Source: Gemmatimonadaceae bacterium
Lineage (GTDB): Bacteria > Gemmatimonadota > Gemmatimonadetes > Gemmatimonadales > Gemmatimonadaceae
Direction: 5' to 3'
Assembly: GCA_019637355.1 (NCBI GenBank)
Contig: JAHBVT010000001.1
Location: 2,077,192 to 2,141,191, forward strand
DNA length: 64,000 bases
A program made the translations under genes and the position numbers. The notes under the pieces were generated by a model. It saw only the letters and a list, made by a program, of their open reading frames with translations. It had not been told where the DNA came from and did no database searches. Position 1 is the first letter of the stretch. Every line of letters begins with the position of its first letter. Below, in pieces: positions 13,435 through 18,908 of this stretch.

Positions 13435-15237
13435 TCAGGGCAGCGGCGGGCGCGGGGCCTGCGGGGGCGTGCCCGTCCCTGACGTCGGCGTGGCGATGCG
13501 GAACGTGCGGGCGTCACGCGCCGCACGCTCCATATCGAACAACTGACGGATCGCGTCGCGACTCAGGGCCTCGATATCCTGTGCCGGCGACGCCTGAGGC
13601 AACACGCGGGTGAGCATCCGCACGCTGCTGCCGCCGCCGGGCAGGTTCACGTCGCGGAGTTGCACGAGGCGGGTCAGGGAATCGTTCGGCAGGGGCACCA
13701 TCGAGATGGAGACAATCACGTCGGCGTCGAGCTGCTCGCGCACGGCGTCCACCGTGCGCGAACGGGCGAGGACGCCGAGCACCGAGTCGCGCGGGACGGT
13801 GGTGTAGCGCGGGTGTGCCTCGAAGGCCCGCTGCAGCGAGTCGGCGATGAACAGCGCGGCGGTGTTGAGGTCCGGGCGCGAGGCGGACGGCCGCGGCGGC
13901 ACGACCACCACGCGGCGTGGGCCTCGGGCCGGAGGCGGCGCGCTGCGCGACGCCAGCTCGGCGCGGCGCAGTTCCTCGACGGACTGTGCCATCGCCTGGG
14001 CGGATACCGCTGCCGTGACGACGGGCCGCATCAGCGAGTCGAGCACCGTGCGTTGGATCTCGCGGCGGATACTGTCGGCCATCGCGAGCAGGGCCGCGGT
14101 GTCGCTGCGCGCACTCGTGGGACGGACACTCGGGCGGCTCTCGGCGATGCGCTGCGAGACCGCCCGCGCGATGGCGATGCTGTCGTCGCGCGTGAGCAGC
14201 GCCGCCGCCGGGGCCATCGCCTGCAGCGATTCGGCCACCGCGAGGGAATCGCGCAGCTGCGCCGTGACCGCGACCTCACCCTGCCGCTGCCCGACCAGCC
14301 AGGCGGCCACGACCATCAACAGACCTGCCGTGGCGAAGGCCAACACGCGGCCTCGCGAGGGCGCCGCCATAGCCATCGCCGGCGTCTCGCCCGAACCGCT
14401 GGGAATGGCGTCCAGCGCCGCCACCACCTCGGCCGCGCTGGCTGGGCGGTCGGCGGGAATCTTCTGCAGCAAGTGCGACACCAGCGTCCGCAGCGCCATC
14501 GGGATGTCCGCACGCGACTGCTCGAGCGGCGCCGGTTCGCGCGTCAGCTGCGCCGCCATCGTCTGCTGCGGCGACGCCTCCTTGAACGGCACCTCACCCG
14601 TCAGCAACTCGTAGGCGAGCAGGCCCAGCGCGTACAGGTCCATCCGGTGATCGGCCGCGGGGTCGGCGGCGATCTGCTCCGGCGCCATATAGGCCGGCGT
14701 GCCGATGGCCATCCCGGCGCTGGTGTAGCCGCTGGTCGGCATCGCCGCGGAGATGGCCTTGCTGACGCCGAAGTCCGTGACGAGGGCGTGCGAGCCCTGC
14801 ATCAGGACGTTGCCCGGCTTGATGTCGCGGTGGATGACGCCGAGCCCGTGCGCGTACTCGAGCGCCTCGGCCACCTCGTGCAGGATGCGCAGGACGTCGC
14901 GCACGGGCAGGCGCCCACCCGTGGCAAGGCGCTCACGCAGCGACTGGCCGTCGATGAACGGCATCGTGTACCAGATCAGCGACCCCTGCTCGCCGGCGCT
15001 GAGCAGCGGCACGATGTGCGGATGCTGCAGTTGCGCCGCGACTTGGATCTCACGGCGGAAGCGCTCGTGGTTCACGCCGGCCGCCAGTTCCGGCGGTAGC
15101 ACCTTCACCACGACCTTGCGGCCCAGCGCGTTGTCGGTGGCGACGAATACGCGGCTCATCCCACCGCCCGTCAGCTCCCGCTCGAGCGTGTAGCTCGGGG
15201 CGAGGGCGGACTGCAGATGGTCGGTGAACTCTGACAC
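13435..15237 (-). CDS. Ser/Thr protein kinase with periplasmic TolB/FlgO-like tail
   Basis: A 600-residue kinase facing the signalling cluster tail to tail, with one base between stops. The kinase domain (about 15-275) has TGGGMSRV loop, VVVKVLPP Lys, HRDIKPGN, DFGVSK and APE. One hydrophobic segment near 297-315 (VLAFATAGLLMVVAAWLVG) is followed by a long helical stretch and a C-terminal domain (about 455-580) with the pattern ALFIADSLQRAF..DADVIVSISM, which resembles the nucleotide-free TolB-N/FlgO fold often fused to such kinases. That tail would sit in the periplasm. Likely a second sensor kinase for the same locus. Confidence 0.93.
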   Translation of the reverse strand: MSEFTDHLQSALAPSYTLERELTGGGMSRVFVATDNALGRKVVVKVLPPELAAGVNHERFRREIQVAAQLQHPHIVPLLSAGEQGSLIWYTMPFIDGQSLRERLATGGRLPVRDVLRILHEVAEALEYAHGLGVIHRDIKPGNVLMQGSHALVTDFGVSKAISAAMPTSGYTSAGMAIGTPAYMAPEQIAADPAADHRMDLYALGLLAYELLTGEVPFKEASPQQTMAAQLTREPAPLEQSRADIPMALRTLVSHLLQKIPADRPASAAEVVAALDAIPSGSGETPAMAMAAPSRGRVLAFATAGLLMVVAAWLVGQRQGEVAVTAQLRDSLAVAESLQAMAPAAALLTRDDSIAIARAVSQRIAESRPSVRPTSARSDTAALLAMADSIRREIQRTVLDSLMRPVVTAAVSAQAMAQSVEELRRAELASRSAPPPARGPRRVVVVPPRPSASRPDLNTAALFIADSLQRAFEAHPRYTTVPRDSVLGVLARSRTVDAVREQLDADVIVSISMVPLPNDSLTRLVQLRDVNLPGGGSSVRMLTRVLPQASPAQDIEALSRDAIRQLFDMERAARDARTFRIATPTSGTGTPPQAPRPPLP

Positions 15238-15303: not shown

Positions 15304-16758
15304 CTACGCCAGCCGCCGGGCGGCGGCTTCCTGCATTGCGCGGTCAGCGCTCCACGCACAGATCACGTTCGGCACCTCGGGAAGCGCCTCGGCCAGTGCC
15401 GGCGGTCCGAGCAGCACCGCCACGATCGAGCGCCGTGCGGCACGCGCTGCGGTGACCGCCGCGACGACACGCGCGCGCGTTGCTTCGGTATACCCCGCTC
15501 GCCCGCGTCCGGACGACGGCTCACCGGCAACCACGAGGCACACGGCCCCGCGTCCCTCGTCCGTAGGCCCGTCCACCACCCGCGGCAGGAGCCCGACCGC
15601 GCGCAACGTGCCCAGGAATGGCGCCACGCGCTGTGCCGCACCCGCCGGCCACACATCGTCATCCACAGGTATGACGTCCACCACCGGCCCGATGTTCGTG
15701 AACACGCCGCGTACGGCGTGCACGACCGTGTCGGCGACCTGACGCGCCCAGAGGAGGTCGTCCAGCGTGGGCTCGCGCGGCTCATCGCTGCGGGCCCAGT
15801 CGGCCCAGAACGCCCGCCGCGCCGCGCTGGCCTCAACCTCGTCAAGCAGCACCGCACCCGTATCGATGGCGCGCTCGACCGCGTCGTGCACGCCAGCGAG
15901 ATCTGCCGGTGCGAGGATCAGATCGCAGCCCCCGGCCAGCATCGCCACTGCCGCGTCGCCTTCGGCCCCCAACGCGCGCGCCGCGCCGCCGGACGGCGGC
16001 GGGCTCACCAGCAGCCCCTCGAATTGCAGTTCATCACGCATCAGCTCCCGCAGGATCACGCGGGACCACGCTGCGCCCGCCCCGCTCGTGTCGAGTTGTG
16101 GATATGACACCGGCGAGACGAGCACCGTTGCCACGCCGGCGTCCACCGCCGCGCGAAACGGGACGAGGTCCGTGCCCCAGAGCCCGGCACCGGGCGCGTC
16201 GACCGTCGCCGCGCCGAGCGCAGGGTCCCGCAATGCGCGCCCCTCTCCAGGCAGCGACATCGCCGACGCGAGCACACCCTCAGCTTGGCAGGCGTCGATC
16301 CACGCCACCGCCCACTCCGCCACCCGCTGCGGATCGTGATGCAACGCGCGCGCGCCGAGAAACGGGTTTGCGCGCTCGACGGCGAGGTCGGCGCAGGGGG
16401 CCAGCGCCCAATTCACACCGGCCGTGCGCAGGTCGCGCGCCGTCAGCCGCGCCGCGCGGCGAATCACGTCCTCGTCGCGCAACGCCCCGAGCGCCCCGAA
16501 CGGAGGCAGGCCCGTTGCACCGGTGATGGCGGCACCCGCGCCGCGTTCCGCCGGCGCCGCGATCAACAGGCGGCGGCCGGCGGCCTTCTGCAACGTTGCC
16601 GCCAAGGTTGCGACGGCCTCGCACGGACCGTTGGAAATCACGAAGCCGCCGACGCCGAACTCGAGCGCGTCGTCCACCAGCCCCTGCATATGCGAGAAGC
16701 CGTGGTCCGGATCCCAGCGCAGCTCAGGAATGAGCAGCGCCGCCAGCGGGTGCCTCAC
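15304..16758 (-). CDS. GH3-fold (NagZ-like) protein lacking catalytic residues
   Basis: A 484-residue protein with the N-terminal barrel of family 3 beta-N-acetylglucosaminidases and a second alpha/beta domain. The frame order GATGLPPFGALGA, ..NPFLGARAL.. and the spacing are typical. However, the loop KHFPGHG is replaced by MSLPGEG, the catalytic loop SDDL is SPPP, and the early substrate Asp of the IAxD motif is missing (IAAPAERG). It is therefore probably a non-hydrolysing sugar-binding or regulatory homologue. GTG at 16758 overlaps the anmK stop by four bases, and the upstream open frame is only the shadow of anmK. It belongs to the murQ-anmK recycling operon. Confidence 0.85.
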   Translation of the reverse strand: MRHPLAALLIPELRWDPDHGFSHMQGLVDDALEFGVGGFVISNGPCEAVATLAATLQKAAGRRLLIAAPAERGAGAAITGATGLPPFGALGALRDEDVIRRAARLTARDLRTAGVNWALAPCADLAVERANPFLGARALHHDPQRVAEWAVAWIDACQAEGVLASAMSLPGEGRALRDPALGAATVDAPGAGLWGTDLVPFRAAVDAGVATVLVSPVSYPQLDTSGAGAAWSRVILRELMRDELQFEGLLVSPPPSGGAARALGAEGDAAVAMLAGGCDLILAPADLAGVHDAVERAIDTGAVLLDEVEASAARRAFWADWARSDEPREPTLDDLLWARQVADTVVHAVRGVFTNIGPVVDVIPVDDDVWPAGAAQRVAPFLGTLRAVGLLPRVVDGPTDEGRGAVCLVVAGEPSSGRGRAGYTEATRARVVAAVTAARAARRSIVAVLLGPPALAEALPEVPNVICAWSADRAMQEAAARRLA

Positions 16759-17912
16759 GCGGGGTACAGCGCGCCGAGCACGCGCGGGCCGCGCGCGCCG
16801 GTAGCGCCGACGACGTTGCCGTGGCGGCGGCGCTGATGCAGCCAGCCGAGGAAGGCGAAGGCCACTGCCTCCTTGGCCTCGCCGTCGAAGTACAACTCCT
16901 CGAAGCGCCGAACGTGCCGCGGCGCGAGTGCCATCGCGATGGCCTCGCGCAGGGCCGGATTCTTCGCACCACCGCCGGACAGCAGCACGTCGCCCAGCTC
17001 CTGCGGCACGAAGCGATGCACGGCGTGCGCGATGCTGCGCGCGGTGAACCACACGGCCGTGGCGAGGACGTCCTCGTCGCTGCAGCCGGCGTGCGCCGTG
17101 CGACAGTCGGCCACGAAGCCCGCGATGTATGCACTGGTGAACCGTTCACGACCGGTGCTCTTGGGCGGAGGTGCGTCAAACCACGGCTCGCGCAGGCGCG
17201 CTTCGATCACCGACTCGATCGCGCGGCCCTTGAGCGCCAGCGTGCCGTCTCGGTCGAAGGTCAGCCCTGGGCGCAGGAGGCGCACCGCGCCGTCCACGAT
17301 GCACACGCCCGGGCCGGTGTCGAACGCGCGCACAGCGGTATGGTCGCTGGCGCCGGCCACCAGCGGCGGCAGCACGGTCAGGTTGCCGATGCCGCCGAGG
17401 TTCTGCAGCACACGCCAGGCGTCCGGGCGCGCGAAGAGCATCGCGTCGGCGATCGGCACCAGCGGGGCGCCCTGCCCCCCCGCCGCGACGTCGCGCGTCC
17501 GGAAGTCGGCGATGACGTCGATGCCACAGCGCTCGGCGATCACCGCCGGCTGCCCGAACTGCCAAGTGCCCTGCGGCGGGGCGTGCCACACCGTGTGCCC
17601 GTGCGAGGCGATGGCACGGATGTCCTCGCGCGCGACGCCGGCCTCGGCGATGGCGGCGTTGGCCGCGTCGGCGAGCCAGCCGCCGAGCGCGAAGTCCAGG
17701 CGCGTGTATTCTGCCGGTGACGCGCCCTGCAGCGCGGCCGCGAGGCGCGCGCGCTGGCCCGGCGCATACGGCCGACTGACCTGCGCGAGCAGTTCCGGCA
17801 CGATGCGACCGTCGTCGTGCTCGTGGAAGCGCACGACCACCGCCGTGATGCCGTCGAGCGATGTGCCAGACATCAGGCCCACGTACACATCCGAGCGGAG
17901 CACGGAACTCAC
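16755..17912 (-). CDS. anmK: anhydro-N-acetylmuramic acid kinase
   Basis: Phosphorylates and opens 1,6-anhydroMurNAc released from peptidoglycan, giving MurNAc-6-phosphate for MurQ. The 385-residue protein has the family signature GLMSGTSLDG near residue 11, the central NLGGIGNLT, DTGPG and the C-terminal GGGAKNP. GTG at 17912 overlaps the murQ stop and gives the usual family length (about 370-390). Middle gene of murQ-anmK-GH3, all coupled by 4-base overlaps. Cytoplasmic. Confidence 0.96.
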   Translation of the reverse strand: MSSVLRSDVYVGLMSGTSLDGITAVVVRFHEHDDGRIVPELLAQVSRPYAPGQRARLAAALQGASPAEYTRLDFALGGWLADAANAAIAEAGVAREDIRAIASHGHTVWHAPPQGTWQFGQPAVIAERCGIDVIADFRTRDVAAGGQGAPLVPIADAMLFARPDAWRVLQNLGGIGNLTVLPPLVAGASDHTAVRAFDTGPGVCIVDGAVRLLRPGLTFDRDGTLALKGRAIESVIEARLREPWFDAPPPKSTGRERFTSAYIAGFVADCRTAHAGCSDEDVLATAVWFTARSIAHAVHRFVPQELGDVLLSGGGAKNPALREAIAMALAPRHVRRFEELYFDGEAKEAVAFAFLGWLHQRRRHGNVVGATGARGPRVLGALYPA

Positions 17913-18826
17913 GGGCGCTCCACCAGCGGCGGGGCTTCGGCGAGCACGTGCCGGATGACGCCGCCCGCGGCATCCAGCCGCGCACGCGCCGCGGCCGCGT
18001 CGAGCCCGAGCTTGTGCATCACGATGGCGAGCTTCACGTGCCCATCCGCCTGCTTGAGCAACGCGCGGGCGGCGTCGCGCGGCACGCCGCAGGTCGTGAT
18101 CACGAGCCGCTCGGCGCGGTCGCGCAGCTTGTCGTTGCTCGCGCGCAGGTCCACCATCAGGTTGCCGTAGGTCTTGCCGATGCGCACCATCGCGGCCGTC
18201 GTGATGGTGTTGAGGACGAGCTTGGTGGCCGTTCCCGCCTTGAGGCGCGTCGAGCCGGTGACCACCTCGGGCCCGGTGATCGGCAGGATGGCCACATCCA
18301 CGGCCGCCGTGACCTCGGCCGGCGGCGGCGAGCACGCGACAATCACGGTGCGGGCCCCAAGCGATGCCGCGTGCGCAAGCGCGGCACGCACATACGGCGT
18401 GGTACCGCTGGCCGCGATGCCGACGACGACGTCGCCGGCGGCGACGCCAGCAGCCGTGAGGTCCTCGCGCGCGCCGTCGGGCCGATCTTCCGCGTCTTCC
18501 TGCGAGCGCGTGAGCGCGGCAGGGCCGCCGGCGATGATGCCTTGCACCATCGTCGGATCGCTGCCGAAAGTCGGCGGGCACTCCGAGGCGTCGAGCACGC
18601 CGAGCCGGCCCGAGGTGCCGGCCCCCACGTAGAACAGGCGGTACCCGGCGCGGAAGGCCTGCTCCACCAGCGCGACGGCGCGGGCGATGGGCTCGCGCTG
18701 CGTCGCCACCGCATCGGCGACGCTGCGGTCCTCGGCGTTCATCAGGTCGACGATCTCGAGCGCCGAGGCGAGGTCGATGTCGGCGCTGCGGGGATTGCGG
18801 CGCTCCGTGACGCGAGGATCAAGCAC
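17909..18826 (-). CDS. murQ: N-acetylmuramic acid 6-phosphate etherase
   Basis: Removes the lactyl ether from MurNAc-6-phosphate to give GlcNAc-6-phosphate, the second step after AnmK. It has the SIS-fold signature VGAGTSGRLGVLDASECPPT with the catalytic Glu, GIAASGTTPYV, and NLMVDLRASNDKLRDRA. The GTG start at 18826 gives 305 residues against about 300 for the family, and the next residues TERRNP match the usual MurQ N-terminus. No clear ribosome site precedes it. First gene of the recycling operon and divergent from the barrel gene at 18909 with an 82-base shared control region. Confidence 0.96.
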   Translation of the reverse strand: MLDPRVTERRNPRSADIDLASALEIVDLMNAEDRSVADAVATQREPIARAVALVEQAFRAGYRLFYVGAGTSGRLGVLDASECPPTFGSDPTMVQGIIAGGPAALTRSQEDAEDRPDGAREDLTAAGVAAGDVVVGIAASGTTPYVRAALAHAASLGARTVIVACSPPPAEVTAAVDVAILPITGPEVVTGSTRLKAGTATKLVLNTITTAAMVRIGKTYGNLMVDLRASNDKLRDRAERLVITTCGVPRDAARALLKQADGHVKLAIVMHKLGLDAAAARARLDAAGGVIRHVLAEAPPLVERP

Positions 18827-18908
18827 GCGAGGTGGCGGGCGGAGGAGGACGGCGCGGCGCGACTGGCCTCGGTGCCGGGGGCGCGGCGACGGAGGTAAGT
18901 TATCTCCC

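Follow-up and report, generated by a model that had tools for sequence, protein, structure and literature searches.

The 64,000-nucleotide stretch of Gemmatimonadaceae DNA analysed here (the window) carries an operon for the recycling of N-acetylmuramic acid (MurNAc) that contains a glycoside hydrolase family 3 (GH3) gene at the position where the first-pass annotation expected an active NagZ. That annotation described the protein as catalytically dead and proposed for it a new role, such as that of a sugar sensor or a partner of AnmK/MurQ. The locus therefore raises two questions: whether the enzyme has truly lost its catalytic apparatus and, if so, why the gene is still present.

The GH3 gene and its operon

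The genes concerned lie on one strand of the window:

17909..18829, minus strand: murQ, MurNAc-6-phosphate etherase (SIS-domain matches PF22645/PF13580); its start is approximate and placed by homology, orthologous matches beginning at about residue 74 of a long ORF
16755..17912, minus strand: anmK, anhydro-MurNAc kinase (PF03702, 305 bits); its start is placed by the GTGA overlap with murQ
15304..16758, minus strand: very probable GH3 pseudoenzyme (pseudo-NagZ) of 484 residues (PF00933, AF2 model and structural matches)
13435..15237, minus strand: gene for a Ser/Thr protein kinase, separated from the GH3 gene by 66 bp on its downstream side (PF00069, 157.5 bits; synteny)

The GH3 frame fills exactly the interval given above, from a GTG start to the stop codon, which is included. 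GTGA overlaps, read from the sequence, link murQ to anmK and the stop codon of anmK to the GH3 start, and the GH3 gene is translationally coupled behind both. The order murQ-anmK-GH3 on one strand recurs in 109 of 117 orthologous loci, with tight spacing in nearly all of them, and the operon assumed by the first-pass annotation is accordingly a real one; the other eight loci lack a complete murQ-anmK pair, mostly at contig ends. The active-site residues of the window's AnmK are intact, and the catalytic columns of AnmK and MurQ are invariant or nearly so across the same genomes, which implies that the pathway itself is not decaying.

The GH3 protein consists of a TIM barrel (approximately residues 1-318) followed by a GH3-type C-terminal alpha/beta domain (approximately residues 319-484). 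Its match to PF00933 (146.6 bits, E 1.5e-42, against a curated cut-off of 27) places it within the GH3 fold family, and its score with the NagZ model PRK05337, which has 340 positions and hence describes the single-domain type of NagZ, is 100.9 bits, below the equivalog cut-off of 207. The AF2 model (pLDDT 96.2) predicts an intact fold. Its best structural match is 3sql, a GH3 hexosaminidase from Synechococcus (Z 47.1 over 466 aligned residues); a full-length match is also obtained with 4gyj, the NagZ of B. subtilis (Z 45.8, 465 residues). The Synechococcus structures 3sql/3sqm have the same domain layout, but 3sql, at 22% identity, keeps every catalytic residue and the window protein does not. 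With NagZ in general, both the cytosolic form of E. coli and Caulobacter and the two-domain NagZ/YbbD of B. subtilis (PDB 3bmx, 4gyj), the protein shares its descent, the fold of both domains and the company of murQ and anmK in an operon; unlike the B. subtilis enzyme, it has no export signal. A Pfam domain search found no DNA-binding or signalling domain attached to it. A sequencing or frame error was rejected as the origin of the altered motifs, given that the gene occurs in 17 species of the genus and its frame is open in all of them.

Loss of the catalytic and substrate-binding residues

The active site was read from an alignment to 3sql and to the 117 orthologues, in which nine residues of NagZ were checked. 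Three of the altered sites are the following:

16000..16002, minus strand: codon of Pro253, which replaces the nucleophile Asp (orthologue alignment)
16219..16260, minus strand: degenerate acid/base loop, residues 167-180, MSLPGEGRALRDPA in place of KHFPGHG....DSH of intact orthologues (117-orthologue alignment)
16552..16554, minus strand: codon of Pro69, which replaces the substrate-binding Asp (orthologue alignment)

The acid/base dyad of NagZ is the D(S/T)H that lies downstream of KHFPGHG (PMC5615308). The corresponding signature, KH(F/I)PG(H/L)GXXXXD(S/T)H, is absent from the window loop MSLPGEGRALRDPA, in which the dyad reads D178-P-A180, with Ala180 in the place of the acid/base His, and KHFPGHG reads MSLPGEG, with M and S in the place of the substrate residues K167 and H168 and E172 in the place of the PGHG His. 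The nucleophile Asp that is expected of a NagZ is likewise missing: (S/T)DA(L/M) has become SPPP, and no neighbouring Asp or Glu stands in the aligned columns that could correspond to it. H216, the His after strand 7, has become P, and among the pocket residues D124 and R137 are kept. In comparison with NagZ, then, the protein is without the acid/base His, the nucleophile Asp and three substrate residues. The three changes listed by the first-pass annotation (KHFPGHG to MSLPGEG, the nucleophile motif to SPPP, and the substrate Asp to Pro) are borne out by both alignments, but that list overlooked the true dyad, the His of which is lost at position 180, and the nucleophile motif that it took as reference, SDDL, is in this family mostly S/T-D-A. 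Catalytic residues that are shifted but present, which would have contradicted the earlier reading, were not seen, and shifted or replaced residues were rejected on the basis of the alignment and the superposable predicted fold.

In Caulobacter, a single Asp-to-Ala change at a catalytic position abolishes NagZ activity, and the dead enzyme behaves like a deletion (PMC13046382), so that no non-catalytic function is known that could have been inherited. Judged by its residues, the window protein is very probably catalytically dead, and the replacement of D69, K167, H168 and H216 by P, M, S and P implies that the canonical GlcNAc subsite is gone as well.

Recurrent loss of NagZ residues within the family

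At the thresholds used, a GH3 match was found in each of the 17 species covered for the window's genus and in 119 of the family's 179 genomes; the 117 loci extracted include relatives from the wider order. All nine NagZ residues are kept in 65 of these orthologues, spread over 24 genera and including each of the ten orthologues from other families of the order that were placed on the tree. This indicates that an ordinary NagZ, located in the cytosol, was ancestral, and a GH3 subfamily that had never been NagZ was rejected, since 24 genera are intact. The loss of catalysis is thus recent and recurrent, and not a property of the family. The check on related genomes proposed earlier has in this way given a divided answer: the losses are shared by many orthologues, and fully intact motifs are common in other genera.

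The acid/base dyad is lost in 32 of the 117 orthologues, 14 of which have lost the nucleophile too; there is no case in which the nucleophile was lost alone. On a tree built from anmK and murQ, and not from the GH3 gene itself, the acid/base His requires a minimum of 11 changes and the nucleophile a minimum of six. The losses of the dyad comprise 14 of the 17 species of the window's genus, a five-member clade of group g25, ten members of g27, and single members of g9, g28 and g38. In the remaining three species of the window's genus the dyad and the nucleophile are kept and the loops are altered; shortened GH3 proteins of 449-453 residues occur in three species. In two dead orthologues of g25 (L095 and L094) the acid/base loop is wholly deleted, and the independently dead L095, without its catalytic loop, is still predicted to be well folded as GH3 (pLDDT 93.5). 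Most orthologues of g27 (L070-L072, L107-L147) show an Asp-to-Glu change at the substrate site, a changed PGHG loop or both, many of them with dyad and nucleophile in place, and an altered specificity is possible for this group.

Within the family there have also been at least six clean deletions of the gene from the operon with murQ-anmK kept (L157-L169, L172, L174, L175); murQ adjoins anmK in the 16 genomes without the GH3 gene that were examined. No absence of the gene was found inside any dead clade of the anmK and murQ tree. The idea that gene loss is the usual step after inactivation was not supported, given that the absences adjoin intact clades, in events too few for a formal test.

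A possible background for these losses is found elsewhere in the genome, where, as the first-pass annotation suggested looking, an active-looking NagZ exists:

L054:1850-4801 (G000:C1:1049349-1052300), minus strand: exported NagZ-beta-lactamase-like fusion, adjoining NamZ on the opposite strand

This second GH3 protein, of 984 residues, has an N-terminal lipoprotein-like signal, a C-terminal beta-lactamase-like domain (PF00144) and all the NagZ motifs in intact form (KHFPGHGDTDTDSH and TDAMDM). The fused form is found throughout the window's genus and in several other genera. In the family, exported NagZ-like proteins are present in 177 of 179 genomes and NamZ in 168 of 179, with every one of the 17 species in the window's genus among them. 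In profile searches, on which these genome-wide negatives rest, an AmpD-type Amidase_2 was detected in none of the 17 species and AmpG had no match in the window's own genome. Taken together, these observations imply that the cytosolic NagZ was probably redundant. Cleavage outside the cytoplasm also fits the six clean losses of the GH3 gene with murQ and anmK adjacent. However, exported NagZ and NamZ are also present where the cytosolic NagZ is intact, and redundancy alone does not answer why these particular lineages lost catalysis, nor does cleavage outside account for the genera in which the cytosolic enzyme has stayed intact.

Selection on the probably inactive gene and its possible role

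Between pairs that diverged after a shared loss, dN/dS is 0.069 (L048/L049), 0.050 (L038/L039) and 0.082 (L052/L053), values that are rough because dS is near or above 1 in dead pairs; a further pair with the same loss gives 0.064 at saturated dS. Intact pairs range from 0.03 to 0.18, and the dead pairs fall within or near that range, in a comparison in which many YN00 pair estimates failed through saturation and the all-pair pN/pS within the genus, being saturated, was left unused. The frame is intact in 17 of 17 species of the genus and, wherever no contig end truncates the gene, in every other dead orthologue examined; in simulations, fewer than 2% of the copies of a neutral frame stay open (without a stop) at 0.3 substitutions per site. 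The window protein retains 57 of the 76 sites that are conserved in intact orthologues. The low dN/dS after the loss argues against simple decay, in agreement with what the first-pass annotation had proposed from the intact frame of a single gene. With essential catalytic residues lost, active-looking orthologues at hand and a sequence maintained by selection, even if at a faster rate, the window GH3 protein is very likely a selected pseudoenzyme.

The main rival is a decay held back by coupling, in which a functionless gene is carried because its deletion would disturb the coupled anmK or the downstream kinase gene, and low dN/dS reflects only the need for a stable, soluble and non-toxic fold. 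The protein distance of GH3 relative to that of anmK and murQ, about 2.2 for the window's genus and 2.1 for the dead clade of g25, exceeds the 0.5-1.6 of most intact groups (g7 reaches 2.07), and this raised ratio also fits a relaxed constraint. The staggering of parallel losses within one genus, the clean losses elsewhere in the family and the three shortened proteins agree with such an erosion as well. The strength of the constraint since the loss, as measured between pairs that share it, does not, nor do the frames that remain open, the deeply conserved sites that are retained, or the failure to find an absence of the gene inside any dead clade, and we consider this explanation unlikely, although it carries more weight than any other rival. 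No claim is made that relaxed sites cluster near the pocket, the p value being 6e-4 with the nine key residues and 0.28 without them.

A sensor role, with the dead barrel binding GlcNAc-anhMurNAc or anhMurNAc and signalling to MurQ/AnmK or to a regulator, is suggested by the position of the gene in the pathway operon, by the retention of D124 and R137 and by some dead g27 orthologues in which the -1 subsite still has its D, K and H. In the window protein, though, D69, K167 and H168 of that subsite were lost along with the catalytic residues, H216 is gone too, and no domain for DNA binding or signalling is attached; the sensor proposed earlier is thereby weakened and now appears improbable. It is more improbable still that E172, new at the PGHG position, and D178 support a different chemistry, such as inversion or a lyase-like reaction: D178 is kept and E172 is common to the two closest orthologues (L038 and L039), but other dead members of the genus have T, V, L, Q, A or F at that position, no replacement nucleophile is conserved and the substrate residues are lost. 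As for the Ser/Thr kinase, it has been considered that the dead NagZ serves as its adaptor or substrate. In the window the two genes share a strand and no promoter- or terminator-like site was found between them, and at least nine species of the genus have this kinase gene directly after GH3. The kinase gene is absent from that place in the outgroups, in the dead species L048, L049, L052 and L053 of the genus and in the dead g25 clade. Since some species of the genus, though a minority, lack the kinase next to GH3, it is not clearly a member of the unit, and its recruitment of the dead NagZ is the least credible of these proposals.

For the selected pseudoenzyme, the following course of events may be envisaged. 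At the outset, a cytosolic NagZ of the ordinary kind would have been translated together with MurQ and AnmK. Exported NagZ and NamZ would split muropeptide disaccharides outside the cytoplasm, monosaccharides would enter, and the cytosolic glucosaminidase would thereby lose its substrate and the constraint on its catalysis. Erosion would then proceed stepwise, the PGHG His and the DSH loop being affected first, then the acid/base His and finally the nucleophile, while the two-domain scaffold stays, as the calculations above show, under purifying selection. The surviving protein may act by binding a pathway or regulatory protein, for instance by scaffolding or modulating AnmK/MurQ or the kinase encoded downstream. 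A retained scaffold with a freed active site is the pattern displayed by the selection and fold data. The deletion of the gene elsewhere, with murQ-anmK kept, implies that the pair can do without it; an obligatory subunit of AnmK/MurQ is therefore unlikely, and of the partnership put forward in the first-pass annotation only a non-obligate form stands. A facultative protein-binding role is the most likely function, but protein binding as such is advanced tentatively, its partner being a conjecture. The odds are about even that the whole statement holds, namely that a pseudoenzyme evolved recurrently, is selected and is kept for a non-catalytic role in protein binding. The more specific proposal, a repeated conversion of cytosolic NagZ within one family into a non-catalytic regulator or scaffold of MurQ/AnmK, is possible but doubtful.

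A pseudoenzyme is usually seen as one ancient event. Across approximately 180 related genomes, one and the same operon gene is found here at every stage: intact, with the substrate loop altered, with the acid/base residue lost, with the nucleophile lost, with the catalytic loop deleted, and absent. With all the stages side by side, the reason for keeping a dead enzyme becomes testable by comparison and gene swaps. A practical consequence is that a GH3 annotation alone overstates NagZ activity, in view of the 14 and 32 orthologues in 117 that lack the nucleophile and the dyad, respectively. If the interpretation is correct, a bacterial pseudo-glycosidase has evolved in parallel in one operon, and intact, half-dead and fully dead orthologues coexist.

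Among the papers searched, none describing a NagZ pseudoenzyme was found, nor any relevant one on peptidoglycan recycling in Gemmatimonadetes. Other pseudo-glycosidases, such as Klotho (GH1 fold) and the chitinase-like lectins (GH18 fold), have kept their fold for binding after catalysis was lost; these are eukaryotic and extracellular, whereas the window protein is bacterial and cytosolic, belongs to GH3 and has several independent origins in the same operon. The glucokinase regulatory protein (GKRP), a homologue of MurQ, provides a precedent for the change of a MurNAc-recycling enzyme fold into a regulator, as an analogy only; its fold and gene differ from those of the window GH3. The MurQ encoded in the window itself matches the domain models of GKRP.
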